Source: Bacteroidota bacterium (GTDB lineage Bacteria > Bacteroidota > Bacteroidia > B-17B0 > Aurantibacillaceae). From it: 64,000 nucleotides of DNA. Positions within the stretch are counted from its first letter, which is position 1, and each line of letters starts with the position of its first letter. The translations under genes were made by a program, and so were the position numbers. Location: contig CANFTW010000004.1 in the NCBI GenBank assembly GCA_947450025.1, forward strand, positions 186,001-250,000, read 5' to 3'. The notes beneath the pieces are model-generated. The model saw nothing but the letters and a program-made list of their open reading frames with translations. It did no database searches and was not told the DNA's origin. Shown here piece after piece: positions 2,552-55,183 of the stretch.

Positions 2552-5500
2552 TTATTTCAATAAAGTGACATGACCTATATATTCATGTTTCTTACCAAGT
2601 ACATCTTTCAATTTCACTTTCCAAGTATACACATCTTGTTTTCCTTCGGCATTTTTTCCTTGAACTTTACCGTTCCAACCTTTGGTAATATCATCCGTGT
2701 AAAAAATCATCGCACCCCAACGATCAAAAATCCACATTTCATAATGTGCAATACCAATACCTGAACCATTAAAATAATCATTAATACCATCTTCATTAGT
2801 TGGTGTAAAAGCATTAGGTATGTAGAATGTAAATTCAGGTGCTATCTCCACTGGTACAATCGCTGTGTCTCTGCAACCATATTGATTTTCAATAATAATA
2901 TTAGAATAATAGGTTGCCGCTGTTACATCATTATAAAAATGTTCTGGATTAATATGTGTAGAATCTATTTTAATAGGTCCATCACCAAATGTCCACCACC
3001 ATTTAACGTAATCATGAGATTGATTGTTGAATGTAATTAATGGCGTTAAAATACTACCTGGACTAGGACTCACATAATAACTTGCTACAGGCACAGGGAA
3101 CACGGTAACGTATGCTAATTTATTATTTGTGTTAACACATCCACTATCCGTAGTCACGGTTAAACTAATATCAAATTGAGCTAACTGACTACTGCTATTA
3201 TTTGTATAACAATGATTCACACTAGCGTTTGTAGGATTTGTTACACTTGATCCATCTCCTAATGACCATTGCCATTGTGAAATTCTTGCAGGACCCGTAA
3301 TGGCAGGCGTAGCATCGGTAAACGTAACGCAATGTTTAGGACATCCATCTGGATCATTCACACTAAACATTGGACTAGGGTTATAATTCACATAAATTGT
3401 TTTTTTTATGGTATCTCTACATCCATTATTTGTTACTGATACCAAACCTATGGTTTGTGTACCTGCCCCACTAAATGTATTATTAGCACTTTGGCCATTC
3501 GCTTCAATAGTGCTGATTGAATTATTAAAATCCCAGAACCAATTTGTAATCGTACCACTATTAGCTAATGTTTGAGCCGAGAATGTCATCGCCACTTGAT
3601 CACAAGCAGATGCATTAGCAATTCGCACCAATGGTTTTGGATAAATTTGAACTTGTTTAACCACAGTTGCTTGACATCCTAAATCGGAAGTTACCGATAA
3701 CGTTGCATTATAGGTTCCAGCTAATAAGTAGGTATGTGTTGTAATTGCAGAAGCTGTCGATGAGAATGTTCCTCCATCTCCAAAACTCCAAGCGTAAACA
3801 GTATTTGTGCCAACAGGGATTGTTGTCGTCGAGCCGTCAAATGATACAGGTTGATTATTGATACACTTATTTGCATAAGTGAAATCAGGAACTGGTGACG
3901 GATTAATACTAACTGTTCTAGTAATAGTTGCTGTACAAGAAGTATTAGACATAATATTTAAGGTGATGTTTTTCACACCACTTGTAGAATATATTAAAGG
4001 ACTTGGATTAGCTGACGTTGATGTAGCAGGGCTAGCTCCTGTGTCAAAATTCCAACTATAACTTGTAATATTATTTGGTGCAGAAACGCTTGATGTGTTA
4101 TTTAATAAAATATTAGAATTTGTACAAGCACCTACCGGATTAAACGTTGCTATAGGAACGGCACCAACGTTAACAGGTATTAACACACTATCTCGGCAAC
4201 CATTGTTGGTGACGACACTTAACTCGACACTATAGGTTCCTGCAACAGTATAAGTGTTGGTTGGTGTTTGAGTGGTATTATCAACAATCCCATTATTATC
4301 AAAATCCCATGACCAATTGGTAATATTATCAGGAGCAGAAACACTAGAGGTATTTCCAAAGGTAGTTGCTAAACCTAAACAAACTGTATTGGCAGAGATA
4401 GCAGCGGTTGGATTTGGATAAACCGTTAATGTTTTTGTAATAATACCATGACATCCGCTTGAATTTGTAACGGTGTAAGTCACATTTTTGATACCAGGAG
4501 TCGTATAAGTATGAGAAGGATTTGCTCCAGTCCCATGTGGGGTTCCATCTCCATAATCCCAATCATGAGCCGCTATACCAGTTGTTGGTGAAGCCGCACT
4601 AGTAAAATTAGTAACGGTATTTAAACAGGCATTAGAAGTTAAAAAATCAGCATTAATAGCAGAAGAAACAGACAATACTTGAGTAATACTATCGGTACAT
4701 CCACCATTTGACACCAATAACTGCACACTATACGTACCTGGTGTTGTGTATGTGTTGGTAGGGCTTTGTGTTGTATTATCTGTAATCCCATCATTATTAA
4801 AATCCCAATAATAATTTGAAATTGGAGGGCCACCGTTTACTGAAGTTGTATTGACAAATGGTACACTCAAGCCATTAGCACATGGGTTTGTTGAGAAGGT
4901 GAAATTGGCCAATGGATTGGGGACAATATTAAATGTAGAATACAAGACGGGACTCTGACAACTGGTTCCCTGCATACCGAGCGTGACGGAATAGGTTCCG
5001 GAGGTGGAAGTGGTAATACATTGATTGGTGTTTCCCGTGGCCCCTGGCCCGGTCCATGAATAGGAGGTAAAGCCTGGTGGTGCACATAAAGTATTGGTGA
5101 CCGTAGAACACATATTAGTGGTAGTTTGACCAACCGGAATATCCGTACCATTTAAATTTAAAGTCATTGGATCACAAGCGGCGTCAATATAACAATATCC
5201 AGGATGGGCGCCCTGAGCTGCGACACATCCCCCAACTGTAAACTCAATATTTACACACTGACCAATATAATTGGTTAAATCAAATGAACGTGTTTGCCAT
5301 GGCAAATAACTCCAAGCTGCTCCACTAGAAGCATTTGTATAAGATATAAAGTTAGGATCTCCACTTGAACAAGCAGAACCTTGCTGCGCCACTTGATATT
5401 GAGCACAAGGAATAACGACGTTGTTACAAGTTTCGAATTTGATATTAAAGAACGGTTGATCTGAACAAGCATGTCCGCCATCCTGCAAAATAACAGCGTA

Positions 5501-6097
5501 TTTATATACAAATACGGAGTTTGCTGCCGTTACCGTAAAAGTTTGATTTAATCGATAAGAAACACCACCTGTGCCAGTTTGACCTAAACGACAAGCGAAA
5601 TTTCCTCCACCAGGAGGCACTGTAGCTACTAAAGGCACATTAGGATCAGTTCCCGGACCTACAAGAACTGCTTGAGTTGTAGCTGCTGCGCAACAGCCAG
5701 CCATGGTAATTGAATTATTGTTAGTACCTTCTAGAGCTGTCCAGCCTGCTAAAGTTCCAGTCTCAAAGCCAGGGTTAGTACAAGGAGCTTGAACAGTAGG
5801 ATTTGGGGCATTTGTTCTTAATCCAAAATGAAAATCAATATAATTTCTCTTTAAAACGGCAACAATTCGTCTTTGCTTCCACAACTCATTTGTATTCATT
5901 TGAGCTTGAACCCATGCAGCATCTTCATCAAATCCAATTAATGAGTCTGCTGAAAACTCATAGGGCAAGTAAAACTTGTCAATATTTTCGCCATTCAAGC
6001 CTTTATGCTCATGATGACTGTCTGTTTGAGCAAATCCAAGTTTTGATAAACCCAACAAGTAAATAAAAACAACAAATACTTTATAAAAACGTTTCAT
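2552..6097 (-). CDS. PKD-repeat adhesin with type B T9SS C-terminal sorting domain
   Basis: 1181 residues, with a signal peptide at 1-24 (ending GFAQ). After it come a Cys-rich N-terminal region of about 300 residues and an Ig-like segment. About eight PKD-type repeats follow, recognisable by W(D/S)FGDG-like and HTYxxxGTY motifs plus a recurrent GCxD turn. The C-terminal 90 residues match the gliding-motility-associated C-terminal domain: YIPNAFTPTNEDGINDYF, IFDRWG, YTWKVKLKD, GHVTLLK. In Bacteroidota this domain targets proteins through the type IX secretion system to the cell surface. A surface adhesin or matrix protein is inferred. Repeats one and three are very similar, suggesting recent duplication. 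A segment at about 4951-5090 is unusually GC-rich. No T9SS machinery gene is in the window. Confidence 0.9.
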   Translation of the reverse strand: MKRFYKVFVVFIYLLGLSKLGFAQTDSHHEHKGLNGENIDKFYLPYEFSADSLIGFDEDAAWVQAQMNTNELWKQRRIVAVLKRNYIDFHFGLRTNAPNPTVQAPCTNPGFETGTLAGWTALEGTNNNSITMAGCCAAATTQAVLVGPGTDPNVPLVATVPPGGGNFACRLGQTGTGGVSYRLNQTFTVTAANSVFVYKYAVILQDGGHACSDQPFFNIKFETCNNVVIPCAQYQVAQQGSACSSGDPNFISYTNASSGAAWSYLPWQTRSFDLTNYIGQCVNIEFTVGGCVAAQGAHPGYCYIDAACDPMTLNLNGTDIPVGQTTTNMCSTVTNTLCAPPGFTSYSWTGPGATGNTNQCITTSTSGTYSVTLGMQGTSCQSPVLYSTFNIVPNPLANFTFSTNPCANGLSVPFVNTTSVNGGPPISNYYWDFNNDGITDNTTQSPTNTYTTPGTYSVQLLVSNGGCTDSITQVLSVSSAINADFLTSNACLNTVTNFTSAASPTTGIAAHDWDYGDGTPHGTGANPSHTYTTPGIKNVTYTVTNSSGCHGIITKTLTVYPNPTAAISANTVCLGLATTFGNTSSVSAPDNITNWSWDFDNNGIVDNTTQTPTNTYTVAGTYSVELSVVTNNGCRDSVLIPVNVGAVPIATFNPVGACTNSNILLNNTSSVSAPNNITSYSWNFDTGASPATSTSANPSPLIYSTSGVKNITLNIMSNTSCTATITRTVSINPSPVPDFTYANKCINNQPVSFDGSTTTIPVGTNTVYAWSFGDGGTFSSTASAITTHTYLLAGTYNATLSVTSDLGCQATVVKQVQIYPKPLVRIANASACDQVAMTFSAQTLANSGTITNWFWDFNNSISTIEANGQSANNTFSGAGTQTIGLVSVTNNGCRDTIKKTIYVNYNPSPMFSVNDPDGCPKHCVTFTDATPAITGPARISQWQWSLGDGSSVTNPTNASVNHCYTNNSSSQLAQFDISLTVTTDSGCVNTNNKLAYVTVFPVPVASYYVSPSPGSILTPLITFNNQSHDYVKWWWTFGDGPIKIDSTHINPEHFYNDVTAATYYSNIIIENQYGCRDTAIVPVEIAPEFTFYIPNAFTPTNEDGINDYFNGSGIGIAHYEMWIFDRWGAMIFYTDDITKGWNGKVQGKNAEGKQDVYTWKVKLKDVLGKKHEYIGHVTLLK

Positions 6098-6350: not shown

Positions 6351-8246
6351 TTAAATCAAAGAATAAACCTTTTTCCAAACCGCAAAAGAATATAATCTGA
6401 GGATAAAATTTGGTTTTTGAGCCAATAATTGATTGAAATTCTTAGAAAGATGGTTCAAATCTACAAAATTGAGCTGCTGATGGATCGTATCCAAGATTTC
6501 TGTTTGATGTGATAAAAGCCATTTTTGAACTGGAGCTTCAAAACCTATTTTATCTCTTCGCTGGTAAATTTCAATTGGAAGATATGCCTTAGAAGCTTCT
6601 CGCAATAAATATTTAGAAATACCATTCCTTATTTTCTTATTTCCTTCAATTGAAAACACGTAATTAACTAACTCCACATCATCGGCAAAAGGCACACGAC
6701 TTTCAATGCCAAAAGCCATACTACAGCGATCTTCACATTTTAAATAAGATTTCAGTCTACCATGATAGTCGATTCGTAATTGCTGATTAAGCGATTTCGC
6801 AATCTTTTCACTTTGACTTTTTCCGAATTGTTTTTTATCAGATGTAAAATATTGAGCATAAGTAAGACTTAACCCAAACGTATCTTTTAAGAGTGTTTTA
6901 CCCAATAATGCATAGCCATTTGGCACAGTTTGTTTAGATTCAGCTATTTGTTTTAAAGATGCCAATCCTAAATTCTCTTTCCACTGAGCCATAAAATGAT
7001 GTGAGTATCCTCCAAATAATTCATCTGCTCCTTGTCCATCTAAAAGCACTTTTACACCATGCTCAGCGGCCAACTTCATCACTCTGTGCTGAGTATACGT
7101 ACTGGTACTCCATACAGGCAAATCCTGATAATAATTTAAACTTTCGATATCTCTAAAAAATTCATCGGCAGTTGGACTAACTGTTCTCCAATTACCTCCC
7201 ACAAAATCAGATACTTTTTTGGCATATTGCGTTTCATCAAATGATTCATTTGGAAAAACAGCGGTAAATAGTTTTAAAGATTTATCTGGCTGCAAATGCT
7301 TAACCATGCCCGCAATAATGGAACTATCTAAACCTCCACTCAAACAAGATCCAACTTCCACATCACTTCTTAATCTCAAATCAATCGCATGGAGTAATTT
7401 TTTCTCAATCGCTTGAATGATTTCAGAATCTGATTTTGAAGACAAGGTTTTATGAGGAAGCGAATAATAATTAGTGATTTTTATGGAATGATTGTCTAAT
7501 TGATAAACCAAATAATGAGATGGTTTTAATTCATAAATGCCTTTAAATAATGACTGATCCGTTGTTTCTAAATTTCCATTAACAATAAAATCAAACTGCG
7601 AAATTTCGTTAATTTCAAACTCCACTAATTTAGATTTTATAAAAGCTTTATACTCACTTGCAAATGCAAAAGCATCTGTTGTATTTGAATAATAAAAAGG
7701 CTTTACCCCCACCCGATCTCTAGCACAAAACACTTGATTGTTTTTTTTATCAAACAATGCAAACGCAAACATGCCATTAAACTTCTGTAAACATTTAAAA
7801 CCCCATTCTTTATAAGCTTCGATGACAACTTCTGTATCTGTTTGAGTGACAAAAAAATGTCCTTTTTGTTTTAACTCCTCTCGCAGTTCTATGTAGTTAA
7901 AAACTTCTCCATTAAACGTAATCCAATAATCACCTTGTGCATCACACATCGGTTGATGACCTGATTCTGACAAATCAATGATTGATAATCGTCGGTGAGC
8001 TAAAACAAAATCATAATTAGTGTCGATATTTTGAAAAGATGATTTGGGATTAAATAAAAAAGTATCCCGCTCTTTATTAACTAATGGAGTCTCATTTGAA
8101 TAAACCGGCACCGAATTTGTTTTTGAAAAAAAAGCAAAACCTTCTCCATCAGGCCCTCTATGCTTAATAGCTTGGTTCATAGCAAATACAGCATCTTTAA
8201 GAGATACTGTATTTGTCTTTGAAATAATTCCGGCTATACCACACAT
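6351..8246 (-). CDS. asnB: AsnB-type glutamine-hydrolysing asparagine synthetase / amidotransferase
   Basis: 631 residues. Cys2 of MCGIAG is the glutaminase nucleophile of class II amidotransferases, followed by HRGPDGEG and LAHRRLSIID. The synthetase domain carries the ATP pyrophosphatase loop SGGLDSS at about 303-309, LLDGQGADELFGGY, and GIESRVPFAD. About 35 extra residues (roughly 41-78) separate HRGPDGEG from LAHRRL, compared with the short linker of E. coli AsnB. The gene follows two tandem deacetylases with a 14-nt gap, so it is probably the last gene of their operon. Free asparagine synthesis is the family default. The context also allows amidation of a uronic acid in an envelope glycan, as AsnB homologues in polysaccharide loci are thought to do. 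Confidence 0.9.
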   Translation of the reverse strand: MCGIAGIISKTNTVSLKDAVFAMNQAIKHRGPDGEGFAFFSKTNSVPVYSNETPLVNKERDTFLFNPKSSFQNIDTNYDFVLAHRRLSIIDLSESGHQPMCDAQGDYWITFNGEVFNYIELREELKQKGHFFVTQTDTEVVIEAYKEWGFKCLQKFNGMFAFALFDKKNNQVFCARDRVGVKPFYYSNTTDAFAFASEYKAFIKSKLVEFEINEISQFDFIVNGNLETTDQSLFKGIYELKPSHYLVYQLDNHSIKITNYYSLPHKTLSSKSDSEIIQAIEKKLLHAIDLRLRSDVEVGSCLSGGLDSSIIAGMVKHLQPDKSLKLFTAVFPNESFDETQYAKKVSDFVGGNWRTVSPTADEFFRDIESLNYYQDLPVWSTSTYTQHRVMKLAAEHGVKVLLDGQGADELFGGYSHHFMAQWKENLGLASLKQIAESKQTVPNGYALLGKTLLKDTFGLSLTYAQYFTSDKKQFGKSQSEKIAKSLNQQLRIDYHGRLKSYLKCEDRCSMAFGIESRVPFADDVELVNYVFSIEGNKKIRNGISKYLLREASKAYLPIEIYQRRDKIGFEAPVQKWLLSHQTEILDTIHQQLNFVDLNHLSKNFNQLLAQKPNFILRLYSFAVWKKVYSLI

Positions 8247-8260
8247 AACATTTTTTGTAT

Positions 8261-9577
8261 TTATTTATAATCAATATTTTGTTTGGATAATATTAATGAT
8301 CTTTTATATACATCAATCCATTCTTTTTGAGTGCTAACAAAACTATCATTATGCCAAACAGAAACAAATTCTCCTCCTTGTTTTTTCACCGTTCTTAAAA
8401 GTTGATCAATAAATTGATTAGCCTGTTCTACATTATATCCATTATAATCTCTCAACGTCCCTTCCATGATTGTACTAGGATGTATCATTAACGAAGTTGG
8501 TTCGTTTTTTTGCAAATCAAACCAAGGATAAGGCGTGCATAATCCAGATCTGAATCCAGATTCAGAAGCATAAATCATCGTATAATCATCCGTAATTCCA
8601 GCCTGAATAAATGCCCTATATGTTTCTGGAAACTTTACTCGTAAAAAATGACAGCGCGCTGAAGTCACTTTTTTTTCAATGATATTTTCTAATCGTTGCT
8701 TTTCTAATTCAATTTTTTCTATATCATTAAATGATTCATAGGATGGATGAAGACCCATCGTATGATCATTTGATAATTTTTTTAATAATTTTCTAAAACC
8801 ATTACTTTGATAATGAGGATTCTTATCATACTTAGAATAATCACCAATCAATACAAAATACTGCAATTGAGTTTGTGTTTCTTTACTTAGCGTATTAATG
8901 AATTGAAATGTATTATAAGGATCTTTTTCTTCGTTTAAATTACTAACGATACGTTGAGTTACTTGGTTAAGTTTTAAAGAAAAAACATCTTTTAATAATC
9001 CTCCGATGTTACGTTTTAATCCTTTATGAGCAAATGCAAAAGCATTATCGATATCAATCGTTGAGACAAAATTAAATTCTCTTTGGTGAAATTTCAAAGA
9101 AGGATAATAATGATTTAACTTTTCGCTAAATTGCTGAATCGCACTATTTAAAAAAGGAATTCGCAAACAATTGTATTGATAGGCAATGCTGCATTCTGCT
9201 TTAAATCGCTGATGTTCATCTAAATCTGAGTTTAGATATTCCTCATAACGTGATGCAAAATAAAACGTCATCGCGAAAATATCATACCCTAAAAAGTCTG
9301 AAGAATTTGATTTAAAAAATTTAGGAAAATCTATAACATCAATCTCAGCCTCGATTATTTTAGATTTGATGTCTGATTCAAATAATAAATTGTCTGATTG
9401 AATAAACACATCACACTTTTGATGAATTGAAGTATAAGCCATCTTTGGAAGAGGACTACTCAAAAAATCTTCTTGATGATCAGTTAATTGAAAGGCAGTC
9501 TTCAAGATTTGTCCAAACACCAAGTCCATAGCATACGAAACACGTGGTGTGATATGATGGGTGTAAATTAATATCAT
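8261..9577 (-). CDS. Polysaccharide-deacetylase-like protein, second of tandem pair
   Basis: 438 residues, no signal peptide, predicted cytoplasmic. The N-terminus MILIYTHHITPRVSY and the core motifs STIDIDNAF (about 172-180), MGLHPSY, IHPSTI and VWHND match a Bacteroidota polysaccharide-deacetylase-related family found in glycan loci. TIDID corresponds to the first Asp motif of the NodB fold. The usual H-x3-H metal pair is not evident: GLHPSYES has a single histidine. The start ATG overlaps the stop of the upstream paralogue (ATGA), so the two are translationally coupled. By eye the two proteins share roughly a third or more of their residues, concentrated in the N-terminus and the motifs. 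Substrate unknown. Confidence 0.75.
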   Translation of the reverse strand: MILIYTHHITPRVSYAMDLVFGQILKTAFQLTDHQEDFLSSPLPKMAYTSIHQKCDVFIQSDNLLFESDIKSKIIEAEIDVIDFPKFFKSNSSDFLGYDIFAMTFYFASRYEEYLNSDLDEHQRFKAECSIAYQYNCLRIPFLNSAIQQFSEKLNHYYPSLKFHQREFNFVSTIDIDNAFAFAHKGLKRNIGGLLKDVFSLKLNQVTQRIVSNLNEEKDPYNTFQFINTLSKETQTQLQYFVLIGDYSKYDKNPHYQSNGFRKLLKKLSNDHTMGLHPSYESFNDIEKIELEKQRLENIIEKKVTSARCHFLRVKFPETYRAFIQAGITDDYTMIYASESGFRSGLCTPYPWFDLQKNEPTSLMIHPSTIMEGTLRDYNGYNVEQANQFIDQLLRTVKKQGGEFVSVWHNDSFVSTQKEWIDVYKRSLILSKQNIDYK

Positions 9578-10899
9578 GACTGAGGAGCGGCTAATTCAAT
9601 AATTTCTTCGTAAACATTTTTCCAATCAATCCAATCAACAGCTGTTCCCATCGTATCATTATGAAATATCGTAATTAACTCTCCATTATATTTCTTCACT
9701 TCATCTATAATTGGTTTCGCAAACGCTGATATCGTTTGTGGGGTTGCATGATCTTTAAACCTTAACGAGGTTTCGCTCAAACAAAAAGGATGAATTTTCA
9801 ATCCCGTTTCCAATTCATCATCTAAATCATACCAATAAAATGGCATACATAAACTCGCCCTAAACCCATTAAAATTAGCATAGCCCATTGAATAATCATG
9901 TGTGATTCCAAGTTCCAATAAGGTTGCATAAGTATCTGGGAATTTTAACATCGAAAAATGTTGTCGTGAATTAAAAACATCTCGGTGAGTAATTTTAGCC
10001 AAACGATTAATCTCAACTTTAACTTGATTCATATTTCCATTAGACCCAAATGAAGGATGAATGCCTATTGAGGCATAATCTGCCAAATGCTTTATTAATT
10101 GCTGAAATCCATAATTATTAGACGGATGATTTTTGTCATTCATTCCATAATCTCCTAATAAAAAGAAATAAATGACTTTTAATTTATATTTCCTCTGCAA
10201 TTCTAATTGCTTTTCATAGGAATCAAATGGGTCTTTTTCGTTTTTAAAAACAACGGCTGTTCTCTGCTTTAAATCTTCCTTATCAAATCGTAAAAACGAT
10301 TTTAGATATCCTCCTATTGAGCGCATGACGCCTTTTTCTTGATACTTATAAGCTGTATCAATATCTATGGTTGAAACAAAGGAGTATGCATTGTGAGACG
10401 TTATTAATTTAGGAAATCTAGAAAGTAATAATTTTTCAAATTCAGAAATCCATAAGTTAACGATGGGTATATTTAAAAAATCATATTGGTACGCTAAACT
10501 ATTTTCTGCTTCAAATCGATTAAAAGCATCCGGCATAAAAGGTAAATATTCTTCATATCGACTCACCAAATAAAAAGAAGCTGCAAAGACATCAAAAGGT
10601 AAAACGTTATGATAAGTCTTAAAAAAATATTTAAAATAAGCTTCATGATTTTGCATTTGAATGGTTTGTTCTTTTATTCCTGATTCAAACAATAATGAAT
10701 GAGCTACAATATGAAAGTCACTTTCAACCTCCTGGTGCGTATACGATAATTTATATCCTTCAAAAGCTTTATAATCATCTAAATTATTAGTTAAAGAAAA
10801 TTCTAAACCTAAACAATCTTTAAAAATTAAGTTAAAGGTATATTTTACTCTAGGAGTAATCTTGTGAGTATATATAAATATGTGTGAATTGGGATTCAA
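9574..10899 (-). CDS. Polysaccharide-deacetylase-like protein, first of tandem pair
   Basis: 441 residues and a paralogue of the next gene. Shared landmarks are IFIYTHKITPRVKY, LLFES, SRYEEYL, FEAENSLAYQYD, STIDIDTAY (about 176-184), IGIHPSF, RQHFSMLKFPDTY, GFRASLC and IFHND. The TIDID motif is the likely metal/catalytic Asp site of the NodB-like fold; the second canonical histidine is missing from the HPSF motif. No signal peptide is seen, so it probably acts on a cytoplasmic or lipid-linked precursor, if it is an enzyme at all. It is first of a three-gene operon ending with asnB. A -7 promoter element lies about 20 bases upstream. Confidence 0.75.
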   Translation of the reverse strand: MNPNSHIFIYTHKITPRVKYTFNLIFKDCLGLEFSLTNNLDDYKAFEGYKLSYTHQEVESDFHIVAHSLLFESGIKEQTIQMQNHEAYFKYFFKTYHNVLPFDVFAASFYLVSRYEEYLPFMPDAFNRFEAENSLAYQYDFLNIPIVNLWISEFEKLLLSRFPKLITSHNAYSFVSTIDIDTAYKYQEKGVMRSIGGYLKSFLRFDKEDLKQRTAVVFKNEKDPFDSYEKQLELQRKYKLKVIYFFLLGDYGMNDKNHPSNNYGFQQLIKHLADYASIGIHPSFGSNGNMNQVKVEINRLAKITHRDVFNSRQHFSMLKFPDTYATLLELGITHDYSMGYANFNGFRASLCMPFYWYDLDDELETGLKIHPFCLSETSLRFKDHATPQTISAFAKPIIDEVKKYNGELITIFHNDTMGTAVDWIDWKNVYEEIIELAAPQS

Positions 10900-11074: not shown

Positions 11075-12763
11075 ATGCAACAACTAATAGAATGCGTTCC
11101 TAATTTTTCTGAAGGACTTGATTTGTTAATTATACAACAAATTACCAATGAAGTTGAATCTATAGAAGGTGTTAGACTGTTAAATGTTGATCCAGGAAAA
11201 GCTACAAACAGAACCGTTGTGACATTTGTAGGAAACCCACAAGCAGTTATTAACGCTGCATTTTTAGCAATTAAAAAAGCAGGCGAATTAATTGATATGA
11301 GCAAACATAAAGGAGAACATCCGCGTATGGGTGCAACCGATGTTTGTCCTTTAATTCCTATTGCCAATATTAGCATGGAAGAAACTGCAAAATGGGCTCA
11401 GAAATTAGGTGAACGTGTTGGTAAAGAATTACAAATACCTATCTATTTATATGAAGCAGCTCAATCTAACAAAGAAAGAAGTAACCTTTCGGTCATTAGA
11501 GCTGGAGAATATGAAGGATTTTTCAAAAAAATAAAATTACCTGAATGGAAACCTGATTTTGGTCCTGCTGAGTTTGACGCTAAACGTGGGGCAACCGTTA
11601 TTGGAGCTCGTGATTTTTTGGTAGCCTATAATGTTAATTTAAACACAACCTCAACACGTCGAGCAAACTCTATAGCTTTTGATGTTCGAGAAGCAGGGCG
11701 TGTTAAACGAGAAGGTGATCCTATTAACGGAAAAGTGGTGACTGATGCTAGTGGCAATTCTGTTTCTATTTCAGGTTCATTAAAATCAGTGAAAGCAATT
11801 GGCTGGTTTATTGAGGAATATGGTGTTGCCCAAATTTCCATGAACTTAACCAACATCAACATTACTCCACTGCATATTGCGTTTGATGAAGTATGTAAAA
11901 AAGCCACCGAACGAGGTATTAGAGTAACAGGTTCTGAATTAGTGGGATTAGTTCCTTTAAAATCATTATTGGATGCAGGTAAATATTTCTTACAAAAACA
12001 ACAACGTTCAACTGGTGTATCTGAAAAAGAGTTAATTAAAATAGCTATTAAAACAATGGGTTTAGATGAATTAGGGCCATTTAAACCAGAAGAACGCATC
12101 ATTGAATATTTACTAAAAGATAAAGCCGACAGTAAATTAGTTAATATGACTTTAACTGATTTTGCTAATGAAACTGCTAGTGAAAGTCCAGCGCCAGGAG
12201 GAGGTTCTATTTCCGCATACGTTGGTTCATTAGGGATTTCATTAGCAACGATGGTGGCCAATTTATCATCTCACAAAAAAGGTTGGGATGCTCGTTGGGA
12301 AGAGTTTAGTGTGTGGGCAGAAAAAGGACAAAACATAAAAGATGAATTAACCAAGTTAGTTGATTTAGATACAGCAGCATTTAATAAAATCATGTCAGCT
12401 TTTAGTTTGCCAAAAGGGACAGACGAAGAAAAAGCCGCTCGTAAACAAGCCATACAAGACGCTACCAAATTTGCCATTGAAGTGCCGTTCAAAGTGATGC
12501 AATTATCTTATGATAGCTTAACAATTATTAAAGCCATGGCTGAAATAGGCAATCCGAATTCTGTTTCAGATGCTGGCGTTGGTGCTTTATGCGCACGAAG
12601 TGCTGTGATGGGAGCATTTATGAATGTTCGTATTAATGTAAGTGGATATGATGATAAAACTTTTGTTAATGATATCATTTCTAAAGGAAAAGAAATAGAA
12701 AACAATACTGTGACTTTAGAAACAGAAATTTTAAAAATCGTGAATAAAAAAATTGGAGTGTAA
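11075..12763 (+). CDS. ftcD: Bifunctional glutamate formimidoyltransferase / formimidoyl-THF cyclodeaminase
   Basis: 562 residues. The first ~300 form the formiminotransferase domains: LIECVPNFSEG, VTFVGNP, and KGEHPRMGATDVCPLIP, which carries the conserved folate/formimino-binding histidine region. From about residue 365 comes the cyclodeaminase domain, with the Gly-rich SPAPGGGSISAY signature and a helical bundle. In Bacteroidota the two activities are commonly fused like this. Together they move the formimino group of formiminoglutamate from histidine breakdown to tetrahydrofolate and convert it to methenyl-THF. folD, which processes methenyl-THF, lies 3 kb downstream. No hutH, hutU or hutI is in the window, so any histidine pathway must be encoded elsewhere. 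An inverted repeat precedes it. Confidence 0.93.
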   Translation: MQQLIECVPNFSEGLDLLIIQQITNEVESIEGVRLLNVDPGKATNRTVVTFVGNPQAVINAAFLAIKKAGELIDMSKHKGEHPRMGATDVCPLIPIANISMEETAKWAQKLGERVGKELQIPIYLYEAAQSNKERSNLSVIRAGEYEGFFKKIKLPEWKPDFGPAEFDAKRGATVIGARDFLVAYNVNLNTTSTRRANSIAFDVREAGRVKREGDPINGKVVTDASGNSVSISGSLKSVKAIGWFIEEYGVAQISMNLTNINITPLHIAFDEVCKKATERGIRVTGSELVGLVPLKSLLDAGKYFLQKQQRSTGVSEKELIKIAIKTMGLDELGPFKPEERIIEYLLKDKADSKLVNMTLTDFANETASESPAPGGGSISAYVGSLGISLATMVANLSSHKKGWDARWEEFSVWAEKGQNIKDELTKLVDLDTAAFNKIMSAFSLPKGTDEEKAARKQAIQDATKFAIEVPFKVMQLSYDSLTIIKAMAEIGNPNSVSDAGVGALCARSAVMGAFMNVRINVSGYDDKTFVNDIISKGKEIENNTVTLETEILKIVNKKIGV

Positions 12764-30077: not shown

Positions 30078-30107
30078 TTTGGAGTTAACCTAAAAATGGT
30101 AACTTTG
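30078..30107 (+). promoter_or_regulatory. Complete Bacteroidota promoter (-33 TTTG / -7 TAACTTTG)
   Basis: TTTG at 30078-30081 and TAACTTTG at 30100-30107 are separated by 18 bases, matching the phylum consensus TTTG-N17-20-TAnnTTTG. It lies 18 bases before the DUF4249 lipoprotein ATG. This is the best complete promoter in the window. Confidence 0.65.
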
Positions 30108-30125
30108 CTATCCTATTACGCGAAA

Positions 30126-31256
30126 ATGAAAAAAACAACATATTATATTGGATTATTAGCTTTATCAATAATCACCTTATCATCATGCAAAAATGATCTT
30201 GAAGTATTAGCTCCTGGAAAGGAAGCTGTATCGGTATACGGTGTCTTAAATCCTAATGAAACTATTCAAAACATTAGAATAAATAAGGTCTATTTAACTG
30301 ATGGAGATGCTCTTGTTGCGGGTCAAGATGTTAATCAAATTAATTACGGTGCAGGGGAGCTATTAGTAACCTTACAACGTTTTATGCCCGGAAGTACAAC
30401 ACCAACTTTAACAACAATTGGAAATAACACAAAAAAAGAAATTGTTTTAACTGAAACAGTGGTTACCACAGCAAGTGGTAATTTCAATTCTAATCAACGA
30501 ATTTGGCAGACTACCGACAAATTATACGGAACTGGGGAATATAAATTAACCATCAAAAACATAAGTACTGGTGCTCTATTTTATGCTCAAACCTCAATGA
30601 TAGATAGCGTTAGATCATACTCTAGCAAACCTTTTATTCATAATATTCCTAATTATCCTGGTCATGGACAGTATATCATAACTGGCGCTAATCCTACACC
30701 TCAAAGCGGATATATTGATTATTCTGTGCTTACAGCAAATCAAAAAATCAAATTCGTATCTGTTGCAAAAGCTAAGCTTTATAATGTTATTATGCGCTTA
30801 CATTATATAGATTCATTAATAAGCGGGGGTTTTAATTATAATTATGTTGATTATAATTTTCCAACTCAAAAATCACTAAGCATAGCTGGTGGTGAAGCAA
30901 TGGAAGTTTCCTTTTTAGCTAACGATTTTTATACAAATATTGCAGCTGAAATTTCTAAAAAACCAGTAACTAGTATAAAAAATAGAAGAGTTATTTACAT
31001 CGAATATAAAATTACAACAGGGTCAGATGAACTAAATACCTTTTTACAAGTTAATGAGCCTTCAAACTCAATTGCACAAGACAAACCTTATTATACAAAT
31101 ATTAATGGAGGTGTAGGTATTTTTGCATCAAGCTCTCGATCAATCATTACCCATGATTTATGGAACAACTTTATTGATAAAATCGCTTGTCACCCAAGTA
31201 CTAATCCATTATTATTTTGCAACAGCTCTGGAGTAACAACCAGTGTTTGCCCTTAA
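30126..31256 (+). CDS. DUF4249-family outer-membrane-associated lipoprotein
   Basis: 376 residues from the ATG at 30126; an earlier in-frame GTG/ATG-like start at 30096 overlaps the promoter and is rejected. Lipobox ITLSSC gives Cys21. The mature protein opens with the beta-rich AVSVYGVLNPNETIQNIRINKVYL typical of DUF4249, a Bacteroidota family usually paired with TonB-dependent receptors. No receptor is adjacent here, so the partner is not known. A strong terminator follows the stop. Confidence 0.8.
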   Translation: MKKTTYYIGLLALSIITLSSCKNDLEVLAPGKEAVSVYGVLNPNETIQNIRINKVYLTDGDALVAGQDVNQINYGAGELLVTLQRFMPGSTTPTLTTIGNNTKKEIVLTETVVTTASGNFNSNQRIWQTTDKLYGTGEYKLTIKNISTGALFYAQTSMIDSVRSYSSKPFIHNIPNYPGHGQYIITGANPTPQSGYIDYSVLTANQKIKFVSVAKAKLYNVIMRLHYIDSLISGGFNYNYVDYNFPTQKSLSIAGGEAMEVSFLANDFYTNIAAEISKKPVTSIKNRRVIYIEYKITTGSDELNTFLQVNEPSNSIAQDKPYYTNINGGVGIFASSSRSIITHDLWNNFIDKIACHPSTNPLLFCNSSGVTTSVCP

Positions 31257-31279
31257 AATATGACAAAATTCACTCTTTT

Positions 31280-31314
31280 AACCGCCTAAAATGACATATT
31301 TTAGGCGGTTTTTT
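31280..31314 (+). terminator. Intrinsic terminator after the DUF4249 gene
   Basis: A 13-bp perfect stem (AACCGCCTAAAAT / ATTTTAGGCGGTT) with a 5-base loop, followed by a T-run. Confidence 0.92.
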
Positions 31315-31322
31315 ATTGATTG

Positions 31323-31373
31323 TGTCAGGCTGTCAGAATTGCAGTAATTTTTTGAATTGGCACAAACATTGAC
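31323..31373 (+). promoter_or_regulatory. Sigma-54-like element with tandem TGTCAG upstream of dnaK
   Basis: TTGGCAC (31357-31363), five bases, then TTGAC (31369-31373) resembles a -24/-12 sigma-54 promoter (TTGGCAC-N5-TTGCT), with GA replacing the -12 GC. Two direct TGTCAG copies at 31323 and 31331 precede it, eight bases apart. No CIRCE inverted repeat and no good TAnnTTTG are seen between the terminator and dnaK. This may be the heat-shock promoter; the sigma factor is not proven. Confidence 0.45.
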
Positions 31374-31423
31374 TAAAGTACTGCGTAATTTAAAAACACG
31401 TAAACAACTAAAACACATATATT

Positions 31424-33334
31424 ATGGGAAAAATTATAGGAATAGATTTAGGTACAACAAATAGCTGCGTAGCGGTTATGGAAGGTAACGAGGCTGTTGT
31501 TATTGCAAATAACGAAGGAAAAAGAACGACTCCATCAGTCGTAGCATTTGTTGAAGGTGGCGAGCGTAAAGTAGGAGATCCTGCTAAACGTCAAGCAATC
31601 ACTAACCCAACAAAAACGATTTCTTCTATTAAGCGTTTTATGGGAACTTCTTTTGACGAAGCTCAAAAAGAAATTCCTCGTATGACTTACAAAGTAGTTA
31701 AAGGCGACAATGGAACTCCAAGAGTATCTATTGACGACAGAAACTACTCTGCTCAAGAGATTTCGGCTATCATTTTACAAAAAATGAAAAAAACAGCTGA
31801 AGATTTCTTAGGAACAACTGTTGATGAAGCTGTTATTACAGTTCCTGCGTACTTTAACGATGCTCAACGTCAAGCTACTAAAGAAGCTGGTGAAATTGCT
31901 GGTTTAAAAGTAAAACGTATCATCAATGAGCCTACTGCTGCTGCTTTAGCTTACGGTATGGACAAAAAAGGTAAAGACATGAAAATTGTTGTGTTTGACT
32001 GCGGTGGTGGTACACATGACGTGTCTGTTTTAGAATTAGGTGATGGTGTATTTGAAGTAAAATCTACTGACGGTGATACTCACTTAGGTGGTGATGACTT
32101 TGATAACTTAATTATTGACTGGTTAGCTGACGAATTTAAAAAAGACGAAGGCATTGATTTACGTCAAGACCCAATGGCTTTACAACGTTTAAAAGAAGCG
32201 GCAGAAAAAGCTAAAATTGAATTATCTAGCACGACAACTTCTGAAATTAACTTGCCTTACATTATGCCAGTTAACGGAATTCCAAAACATTTAGTAAAAC
32301 AATTAACACGTGCTAAATTTGAACAATTAGCAGATAGTTTAATTCAACGTACAATTGATCCTTGTAAATCAGCATTAAAAAATGCAGGTTTATCAACTTC
32401 CGATATTGATGAAATTATTTTAGTAGGTGGTTCAACTCGTATTCCAGCTATTCAAGCGGCAGTTGAAAAATTCTTTGGAAAATCTCCAAGCAAAGGAGTT
32501 AACCCTGATGAGGTTGTAGCTTTAGGTGCTGCTATTCAAGGTGGTGTATTAACAGGAGAAGTAAAAGACGTCTTATTACTAGATGTAACCCCTTTATCTT
32601 TAGGTATCGAAACTTACGGTGGAGTGTTCACTAAATTAATCGAATCTAATACAACGATTCCTTCTAAAAAAACAGAAACATTCTCAACTGCTAGTGATAA
32701 CCAACCAAGTGTACAATTGCATGTATTACAAGGTGAGCGTCCAATGGCAAAAGATAACAGAACAATTGGTCAGTTTAACTTAGATGGTATTATGCCAGCT
32801 CCACGTGGAGTTCCACAAGTTGAAGTAACATTTGATATTGATGCAAACGGTATCTTATCTGTATCAGCAAAAGATAAAGCAACAGGTAAAGCTCAAAACA
32901 TTCGTATCGAAGCTTCTTCTGGATTAAGCAAAGAAGAAATTGAAAAAATGAAACGTGAAGCAGAGATGAATGCGGATGCTGATAAAAAAGCAAAAGAAGA
33001 AGTTGAAAAATTAAATGCTGCCGACGGATTAATTTTCCAATCAGAAAAACAATTAAAAGATTACGGAGATAAAATTCCAGCTGAGAAAAAAGCAACGATT
33101 GAAAGTGCTCTAGCAACTTTAAAAACGGCTCACGATAGCAAAGATTTAGTAGCTATTGATTCAGCAACAACAGCATTAAACGCTGCATGGGAAGCTGCAT
33201 CTCAAGAAATGTATGCGGCAATGAATGAGCAACAAGGTGACGCTGCTAACCCAGGTGCTGAAGGATCTGCAAATGCAGATGCTGGCAATAAAGGTGAGAA
33301 CGTAACGGATGTTGACTACGAAGAAGTAAAATAA
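31424..33334 (+). CDS. dnaK: Hsp70 chaperone DnaK
   Basis: 636 residues, full family length. The N-terminus [51 protein letters not shown] and [12 protein letters not shown] form the actin-like ATPase; [12 protein letters not shown] starts the substrate-binding domain, and the lid ends in a Gly/Ala-rich tail with DVDYEEVK. The phosphate-2 loop reads GGGTHD where E. coli has GGGTFD, a single conservative change. dnaJ and grpE are not adjacent. A possible sigma-54-like promoter precedes it and a terminator follows. Confidence 0.99.
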
Positions 33335-54420: not shown

Positions 54421-55032
54421 TTATAGAACTGCAAATTTATAATTTAATTTCAAAAAATGTTCAATATATTGAGGAAGTGCATATTTTAAATTTTTCTCAG
54501 CCTTAATATTGTCATGAAAAACAATAATACTTCCATTTCTAGTATATTTTATACTGTTTGCTAAACATTTAGATGGAGTCATCAATTTATCGTAATCATA
54601 ACTTAAGACATCCCAAAACACAATCTTGTAGTCTTTTAAAAGCTCTTTAACCTGACTTTTTTTGATTCTGCCATAAGGTGGGCGAAATAAATTAGTTTTT
54701 GTTAATGTCTGACACTTAGCAATATTTTCAAAATAAAACTCCTTATTAACCTGCCAACCTTTCACGTGATTAAAGGTATGATTCCCTACTTGATGACCTT
54801 CGTTCAAAATTCTCTCGAAAATATTTGGATGCTTACTAATATTATCTCCAACACAAAAAAAAGTAGCTTTTACATTATACTGAGCCAAGACATCCAAAAC
54901 CCATGGCGTTAATTCTTCTATAGGACCATCATCAAATGTAAGATAAATATGAGGCGACTGTTTATCCATCCGCCATAAGGAGCCTTTATAAAATTTCCGT
55001 AAAATTTGAGGAGGCCTCACTAATAATTTCAT
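54421..55032 (-). CDS. NodB-type polysaccharide deacetylase
   Basis: 203 residues from the ATG at 55032; the longer frame would begin with TTG 15 codons upstream and is less likely. NodB motifs: TFDDGPI (catalytic Asp and metal Asp), GNHTFNHV (metal His pair) and RPPYGR (Arg). No signal peptide is evident at this start, unlike most peptidoglycan or chitin deacetylases, so the location is uncertain. The canonical motifs contrast with the tandem atypical pair at 8.3-10.9 kb. First gene of the row with the HMA and GWxTD lipoproteins. Confidence 0.88.
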   Translation of the reverse strand: MKLLVRPPQILRKFYKGSLWRMDKQSPHIYLTFDDGPIEELTPWVLDVLAQYNVKATFFCVGDNISKHPNIFERILNEGHQVGNHTFNHVKGWQVNKEFYFENIAKCQTLTKTNLFRPPYGRIKKSQVKELLKDYKIVFWDVLSYDYDKLMTPSKCLANSIKYTRNGSIIVFHDNIKAEKNLKYALPQYIEHFLKLNYKFAVL

Positions 55033-55183
55033 TGATTTTCTATTCTTATACTTTCTTAAAATGACGAACACCCTCAAATAGTAAAATGAGGTTAGGTTCG
55101 ATAAATTTAAGAATAATTTCAGATAAGGTTAAGAAAACAAAAAAAGACTACTATTAACAAATCAATAGCCTGAATAATATTAT

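Follow-up and report, generated by a model that had tools for sequence, protein, structure and literature searches.

Two VimE-type genes share an operon with an AsnB-like amidotransferase gene in a genome of the Aurantibacillaceae

In this work we describe a three-gene locus in a 64,000-nucleotide stretch of DNA from a Bacteroidota bacterium of the family Aurantibacillaceae (GenBank assembly GCA_947450025.1, contig CANFTW010000004.1, forward-strand positions 186,001 to 250,000). We call this whole stretch the window, and the gene coordinates are positions within it. The locus encodes two related proteins, for which we have coined the names DacA and DacB, followed by an AsnB-like protein. Our analyses place DacA and DacB in the family of VimE, a putative deacetylase that helps to make the sugar to which some oral bacteria attach secreted proteins. 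The three genes are:

9574..10899, minus strand: DacA, 441 amino acids with a TTG start, a VimE-like protein with DUF7033 and a NodB-type domain; first gene of the operon
8261..9577, minus strand: DacB, 438 amino acids, a second VimE-like protein from a clade separate from that of DacA; second gene
6351..8246, minus strand: AsnB-like glutamine amidotransferase, 631 amino acids, assigned by TIGR01536 and by a tree; last gene

Together these genes form a tight operon on the minus strand. The open reading frames (ORFs) of DacA and DacB overlap by 4 bases, DacB and AsnB are 14 bases apart, and the two VimE-like proteins are 38% identical across 421 residues. A sequence-only reading of the window had given the same ORF positions, the same ATGA-type overlap and the same spacing, and had noted that no glycosyltransferase operon is adjacent; each of these points is confirmed. 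Promoter-like sites (28, with 29.4 expected from shuffles) and terminator-like sites (2, with 1.9 expected) do not rise above the shuffled background.

What kind of proteins are DacA and DacB? In a Pfam search with E-values of up to 1, only DUF7033 (PF23019) was matched, at 109.5 bits by DacA and 94.5 bits by DacB, and neither protein matched Polysacc_deac_1/NodB (PF01522). The sole strong NCBIfam match of both is VimE (NF053580), at 169 bits for DacB and 134 bits for DacA, and these two are the only VimE matches in the whole genome at E up to 1. No paper on DUF7033 was found in the open-licence literature. The VimE-type identity is the firmest part of our whole reading. For comparison, the window also holds an ordinary NodB deacetylase gene (54421-55077), which scores 100 bits against PF01522 and has TFDDGP and H-x3-H in its translation.

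The residues that the two proteins share with their relatives were examined in a family alignment of 78 members, from which ORFs of 350 residues or less were left out. The alignment includes both window proteins and L116, a VimE protein that scores over the NF053580 cut-off and is encoded near RecA and a VimA-like gene. The D-x-D of NodB motif 1, the motif-2 His, an R-x-H, a later Arg and a C-terminal His are invariant in all 78 members. The positions below were computed from the ORF starts and the alignment:

10357..10365, minus strand: DacA D179-x-D181, NodB motif 1
10057..10059, minus strand: DacA H281, motif 2 His
9958..9966, minus strand: DacA R312-x-H314, invariant in 78 of 78
9047..9055, minus strand: DacB D175-x-D177, motif 1
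8747..8749, minus strand: DacB H277, motif 2 His

As the sequence-only reading observed, both proteins retain TIDID and lack the second His of H-x3-H, with motif 2 reading HPSFG in DacA and HPSYE in DacB. It took this loss to be peculiar to these paralogues, a view that does not survive the alignment. None of the 78 relatives has a His at the fourth position after the motif-2 His, so the absence is a family trait, and we reject the idea that a NodB enzyme has been specially broken here. H314 of DacA and H310 of DacB are candidates for a replacement metal ligand, judging by the alignment. DacB keeps every position that is conserved at a level of at least 85% in the family.

The AlphaFold models have predicted local distance difference test (pLDDT) scores of 95.4 for DacB and 94.3 for DacA; their alignments used 67 and 63, respectively, of 84 available relatives. 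The DacB model alone was searched for fold relatives, and its residues 166-436 have the NodB fold. HP0310, a deacetylase of Helicobacter pylori, was matched by Foldseek at E 3.5e-07 and aligns with a Z-score of 18.1 and a root-mean-square deviation of 2.9 over 211 residues, and the other top relatives are ArnD (Z 17.1) and WbmS of Bordetella, a putative O-antigen deacetylase (Z 16.3). A sequence search of the PDB with DacB gave only two weak matches, with E-values of 0.026 and 0.084.

Gene order within the genus was compared in 19 congeners. The order DacA-DacB-AsnB lies on one contig in 14 of these (the DacA gene of G003 runs off its contig), and in three further congeners (G011, G017 and G019) the visible part fits the same order and the rest is cut by a contig end. 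This makes it clear that the arrangement is not due to chance. Across 16 loci, the window included, the gap between DacB and AsnB ranges from 1 to 60 bases. The two remaining congeners, G013 and G018, have DacA-DacB with no adjoining AsnB. In G018 a 59% identical AsnB lies on a different contig, and in G013 no AsnB of the window's clade was found, the best match being 37%. Outside the genus we inspected 11 kb or more around the orthologous AsnB in 10 genomes (the AsnB clade members L329 and L331 are represented by short loci that do not include neighbours). Eight of these stretches hold no VimE-type gene; in G024 the AsnB gene directly follows a VimE-type gene with a 3-base gap, and in G035 two genes lie between them. 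Conservation of the pair next to asnB, on which the sequence-only reading had staked its proposal, is thus found inside the genus and mostly missing beyond it.

Did DacA and DacB arise by a recent duplication? The VimE tree, which is midpoint-rooted and has several long outer branches, contains 73 rows, namely 64 of the 78 alignment rows (14 were left out) and 9 rows of a third type, VimE2, that occurs in other genera of the window's family. The branching of DacA in this tree agrees with the order of the species. The 18 DacB rows form a clade of the genus, with longer branches than those of DacA, whose neighbour is a protein from another family (L085) that is itself the only VimE-type match in its genome, G049. 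A recent tandem duplication is therefore rejected. We also considered a rule of two VimE-type genes in every genome of the family, and rejected it since DacA-type and VimE2-type genes occur together in only 7 of 17 family genomes from other genera (G020, G024, G026, G028, G029, G032 and G035). The remaining 10 hold one VimE type, or one together with weak matches.

Neighbourhoods were counted for the best 80 of 571 DacA relatives from a contig scan, and in these a VimA-like gene lies at most two genes away in 42 loci, a WbpI/WecB-like epimerase gene in 24 and an AsnB-like gene in 5, of which three are of the genus type and two are only 23-26% identical. In other families, DacA-like genes often adjoin a UDP-GlcNAc-2-epimerase-type gene and an acyltransferase that clusters with the VimA of L116; the one such acyltransferase that was scanned matches Acetyltransf_6.

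The same-strand run that contains VimE2 in G026 also holds genes for an epimerase and a glycosyltransferase and a further AsnB-like gene, and the order is the same in G032. In two related genera (G024 and G028), genes for an adenylation enzyme, a carrier protein, a GNAT protein and an Antibiotic_NAT protein lie between the DacA-type gene and VimE2; the gene after VimE2 is AsnB in G024 and VimA-like in G028. The best match of the G024 adenylation enzyme is an amino-acid adenylation model, at 270 bits and thus under its cut-off of 317, and the phosphopantetheine site of the carrier protein scores 28.4 bits in G024 and 20.9 bits in G028 (cut-off 20.8). The G024 order, DacA-type gene, second VimE-type gene and AsnB on one strand, matches the window's except for an inserted aminoacyl module. 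It therefore supports an aminoacyl-sugar chemistry around paired VimE-type genes, and keeps a sugar role for AsnB open.

Two further observations concern these genes. The adenylation enzyme, carrier, GNAT and Antibiotic_NAT genes can be seen between two VimE-type genes in L108 (7935-12121) and L079 (8437-12657), with a GH127-like protein in L108; the family name 'aminoglycoside 3-N-acetyltransferase' is probably misleading in this sugar context. In three loci from other genera (L332, L334 and L338), VimE2 stands just before a pair of genes sized like the lipoprotein-like gene and DnaK at 30096-33334 of the window. By eye, the pair in L332 and L334 was read as the same two genes, and the window's pair has no VimE2 before it.

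The known setting for a VimE protein is the sugar that links cargo of the type IX secretion system (T9SS) to the cell surface. The linking sugar is a 2-N-seryl, 3-N-acetylglucuronamide in Porphyromonas gingivalis and a 2-N-glycyl, 3-N-acetylmannuronic acid in Tannerella forsythia, and it is made by WbpA-B-E-D, the putative deacetylase VimE and VimA, with WbpS for the amide (PMC7468200). Cargo attachment in P. gingivalis does not depend on WbpS (PMC7468200, PMC13086638), and the linking sugar of this species is the end of a pentasaccharide on the O-polysaccharide (PMC13086638). Homologues of the vim genes in proteobacteria such as Pseudomonas, Aeromonas and Vibrio have been discussed (PMC7468200). 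A 2025 study of Prevotella intermedia describes another linking sugar in this species, which lacks VimA and VimE, and suggests that there may be several pathways across the phylum (PMC11969387). In the excerpts of open-licence literature that we searched, mostly on oral species, with T9SS reviews and some flavobacterial T9SS studies, we found no survey of VimE in other Bacteroidota, and the aminoacyl donor of the linking sugar is not named. That the modification suggested by the sequence-only reading is wholly new is not supported, since nothing known stands closer to it than the Wbp/Vim pathway (PMC7468200).

Candidates for the precursor route, the second Vim enzyme and the sortase can all be named in the window's genome from similarity and gene order, but they are scattered. 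Genes like those for WbpA, WbpB and WbpD lie together on contig C14 (L212), with one 305-residue ORF between the latter two. The best match of the WbpB-like protein is a dehydrogenase (193 bits) and that of the WbpD-like protein a lipopolysaccharide (LPS) biosynthesis acetyltransferase (224 bits). A WbpE-like gene on C8 has WbpE itself as its best PDB match (347 bits). A WbpI-like epimerase on C6 (709 bits) has as its best solved relative the UDP-2,3-diacetamido-2,3-dideoxy-glucuronic acid 2-epimerase (357 bits), which carries out the WbpI reaction. A VimA-like gene on C7 (197 bits) is found among glycosyltransferases, an O-antigen-ligase-domain protein and an initiating sugar transferase, and PorU is present at 1271 bits. 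In eight stretches around dehydrogenase genes of other genomes, WbpA, WbpB and WbpD occur together in six, WbpA, WbpB and WbpE in one, and WbpA only in one. Taking the VimE relatives, the NodB fold (of DacB only) and these pathway candidates together, we predict as most likely that DacA and DacB are cytoplasmic enzymes that remove an N-acetyl group from the precursor of an envelope sugar, in keeping with the sequence-only reading.

Two other clusters are worth recording here. In a congener (L186, 8714-11445), a FemAB protein, a VimA-like protein and a 278-residue protein that starts MKVIVSHDIDH and has no Pfam match are encoded together in a glycosyltransferase cluster. Comparable sets occur in other congeners; in the window's genome the VimA-like protein is the only one of the three at that place. 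On C8 of the window's own genome (L131, 7956-10515), HisH, AglZ/HisF2 and WbuX-type genes for the acetamidino modification of a sugar lie near a paralogue of AsnB.

The taxonomic distribution of VimE-type genes was compared with that of PorU in 395 sampled Bacteroidota genomes, the window's own included. At E 1e-10, VimE-type genes occur in 111 genomes and PorU in 268, of which 257 exceed the family cut-off. PorU was found in 99 of the 111 VimE-positive genomes as against 169 of the 284 VimE-negative ones (Fisher p 2.4e-9 without a correction for kinship, the genomes not being independent). Because the other 12 VimE-positive genomes have no PorU match, the VimE-type sugar probably has other uses too, and this suggests that the family also serves without the T9SS.

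The flanks of the operon contain the following genes:

2552..6097, minus strand: T9SS type-B sorting domain protein, 1181 amino acids, repeat-rich (TIGR04131 44.1 bits, cut-off 35)
11075..12763: FtcD, far flank beyond DacA

A gene similar to that of the T9SS cargo protein lies downstream of AsnB in nine congener loci. It would be tempting to take this neighbour as proof of a role in the T9SS, but we have set it aside and do not claim it as a pathway member. Its type-B class is one reason; another is that in G018 (L348), where AsnB is apart from DacA-DacB, AsnB is likewise followed by such a gene.

The role of AsnB is the weakest part of the whole reading. The protein scores 483 bits against the asparagine synthase model TIGR01536 (cut-off 267.1) and 359.5 bits against the WbpS-type model TIGR03108 (eps_aminotran_1), which is below both the cut-off of 816.9 and the TIGR01536 score. 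These scores are reversed in the C8 paralogue, with 580 bits for TIGR03108 and 482 for TIGR01536. None of 10 other AsnB-like proteins from Bacteroidota passes the TIGR03108 cut-off, and only the C8 paralogue does better with TIGR03108 than with TIGR01536. An AsnB search of nine chosen genomes yielded no WbpS reference from G403, where nothing matched at E 1e-25. In a tree of ORFs of at least 560 residues with duplicates dropped, the window's AsnB belongs to a vertically inherited clade of 29 rows with 100/100 support. With the TIGR03108 score low, the paralogue leaning towards that model and the clade being vertical, we do not accept AsnB as a proven WbpS.

The N-terminal Cys and the other glutaminase residues that were checked are present in AsnB. 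Relative to AsnB of Escherichia coli, a HMMER alignment places about 37 extra residues inside the glutaminase domain (around 38-78) and about 27 between the domains. The longer glutaminase-to-lid linker of the sequence-only reading was therefore half right, as the extra length is split between the two regions. One further position merits attention:

7032..7034, minus strand: AsnB Q405, aligned to E. coli AsnB Glu348 (codon read from the sequence)

All 29 clade members have Gln here, and the other two full-length AsnB-like proteins of the genome have Leu and Asp. On our own reading of the SGEGSDE motif, E. coli Glu348 corresponds to Glu364 of human ASNS, and the human E364Q variant is inactive with aspartate (PMC6748925). 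The Gln is a weak character that does not decide the matter, because it also occurs in 8 of 13 other Bacteroidota rows, all of them picked by likeness to the window's AsnB. A role as a peptidoglycan meso-diaminopimelate amidase, like that of AsnB in Listeria (PMC8554201), was considered as a further possibility for the window's AsnB.

We propose that, as VimE-type N-deacetylases of the cytoplasm, DacA and DacB belong to a Wbp/Vim-like route to the anchoring sugar of T9SS cargo, an explanation that we regard, with some reserve, as the probable one. Its observed basis is the family of the two proteins, the fold of DacB, the invariant residues, the linkage of DacA relatives to VimA-like and WbpI-like genes, the Wbp, VimA and PorU candidates, and the conservation of the operon. 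In this proposal WbpA-B-E-D would make UDP-2,3-diacetamido-2,3-dideoxy-glucuronate, which presumably is the substrate and which a WbpI-like enzyme could epimerise to the manno form. DacA would then remove an acetyl group, perhaps from N-2 as has been proposed for the known case, with DacB presumably acting on the same or a sister sugar, and a VimA-like acyltransferase would add an amino acid to the freed amine. The finished sugar would end an LPS or O-antigen chain, and its amine would be what the PorU sortase links to the C-terminal end of T9SS cargo. AsnB, as a product of the same operon, may convert the uronate to a uronamide, as WbpS does in P. gingivalis; we predict this for AsnB with a probability that falls somewhat short of even.

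Several findings weigh against this proposal. Both DacA and DacB score under the VimE equivalog cut-off of 440 bits. The pathway genes are spread over contigs C4, C6, C7, C8 and C14, so linkage within the window's own genome is missing. Neither the WbpA nor the WbpB candidate reaches the cut-off of any specific NCBIfam model that it hits, the best for WbpB being an inositol dehydrogenase model, and their naming therefore leans on PDB likeness and gene order. The C7 VimA-like protein is divergent, matching nothing in Pfam at E 0.001 or in NCBIfam at 1e-8, and in 38 of the best 80 DacA-type loci no VimA-like gene lies as close as two genes away. PorU is unmatched in 12 of the 111 VimE-positive genomes, and the cargo protein encoded next to the operon is of type B, a class for which anchoring is said to be unclear (PMC9143113). 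For AsnB in particular, the paralogue that leans towards the WbpS-type model sits in an O-antigen-like cluster, two of the 19 congeners lack an adjoining AsnB, and the vertically inherited clade is mostly found away from VimE-type genes outside the genus, as the 8 of 10 genomes described above show.

How do other explanations compare? It is an even question whether AsnB is an ordinary, housekeeping asparagine synthase that travels as a passenger in the operon, with DacA and DacB working without it. Its preference for TIGR01536, which the C8 paralogue does not share, fits this idea, as does the vertical clade, in which FtcD adjoins AsnB or is one gene off in 4 of the 10 genomes from outside the genus (L332, L344, L349 and L350); FtcD is also on the far flank of the window's operon. 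AsnA is unmatched in 57 of 60 genomes searched, the window's included, which favours a housekeeping role, and P. gingivalis does not need WbpS for cargo attachment (PMC7468200, PMC13086638). A mere passenger is harder to square with gaps of 1 to 60 bases kept in 16 loci, and with G024 repeating the order on one strand with aminoacyl genes between; the Gln of all 29 clade members, given the inactive human variant (PMC6748925), points the same way, weakly, since 8 of 13 other rows have it too. On the side of the deacetylases, the acyl-exchanged or aminoacylated sugar might decorate O-antigen or capsule rather than anchor T9SS cargo. This we think unlikely, although it has points in its favour: the 12 VimE-positive genomes with no PorU match, the glycosyltransferases, O-antigen ligase domain protein and initiating sugar transferase encoded around the genome's VimA-like gene, the annotation of the fold relative WbmS, and the acetamidino-modification trio in the C8 cluster. 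This genome does however have PorU, which occurs in 99 of 111 VimE-positive as against 169 of 284 other genomes. Moreover, the two ideas overlap, because the P. gingivalis linking sugar itself sits on the O-polysaccharide (PMC13086638).

It has also to be asked whether DacB is active at all. The second VimE-type genes come and go, with DacA-type and VimE2 genes in 7 of 17 other-genus genomes of the family, and the DacB branches are the longer ones, as might be expected of a degenerate or regulatory copy with no activity of its own. Against this, DacB keeps all the positions conserved at a level of at least 85%, its model has a pLDDT of 95.4, and G049, the genome with its nearest outside relative (L085), has no other VimE-type match; we consider an inactive DacB very improbable. 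A bolder extension is that the genus and some sister genera, all of uncultured Bacteroidota, make a doubly edited anchor sugar. Two VimE-type deacetylases of separate ancestry would expose two amines, either both on one diacetamido-uronate (N-2 and N-3) or one each on gluco and manno sugars, acyltransferases would recharge them, in some genera from a carrier-loaded amino acid, and AsnB would cap the uronate as an amide. This is speculative, and we would expect it to prove wrong. If true, the aminoacyl donor of the anchor sugar would be a carrier protein, which would set this sugar apart from those of P. gingivalis and T. forsythia.

In summary, the observation made in the sequence-only reading is confirmed and its interpretation is supported in part, the coupling to AsnB being split between the inside and the outside of the genus. 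The chemistry of T9SS cargo anchoring has so far been worked out in a few oral bacteria. If our proposed Wbp/Vim-like route is right, a protein-anchoring route from gum-disease bacteria is also used by environmental relatives. The distribution of VimE-type genes predicts, gene by gene, which environmental Bacteroidota possibly have a Wbp/Vim-type anchor and in which of them a second deacetylase is encoded, and this makes the diversity of anchor sugars a question testable by mass spectrometry, and the carrier-protein cluster is a lead on the aminoacyl donor.

Finally, the locus can be set beside the systems that are already known. With VimE (PGN_1055 in P. gingivalis, and that of T. forsythia), DacA and DacB share the NF053580 match and the invariant D-x-D, H, R-x-H, R and H, and the pathway is echoed by the VimA-like genes near 42 of the best 80 DacA relatives and by the Wbp candidates in the window's genome. 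The window pair differs in scoring below the equivalog cut-off, in having two copies in one operon that is shared with AsnB, and in the scatter of its pathway genes. Like WbpS (PGN_1234), the window's AsnB is an AsnB-type amidotransferase linked to a VimE-type gene, and the sugar that links cargo in P. gingivalis is known to contain an amide (PMC7468200). Unlike WbpS, it prefers TIGR01536, is not beside wbpE/wzx and has a TIGR03108-leaning paralogue on C8. As an asparagine synthetase it is over the TIGR01536 cut-off with its glutaminase residues kept, and differs in the Gln for Glu348 across the 29-member clade and in the insertion of about 37 residues in the glutaminase domain. From the NodB or carbohydrate esterase 4 proteins HP0310, ArnD and WbmS, with which DacB residues 166-436 share the fold, the D-x-D and the first His of motif 2, DacA and DacB are set apart by the absent second His, the extra DUF7033 N-terminal region and the lack of a Polysacc_deac_1 match. 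What is new is that two predicted deacetylases of different descent share one operon with an amidotransferase, while their chemistry is presumably the same as that of the known pathway.

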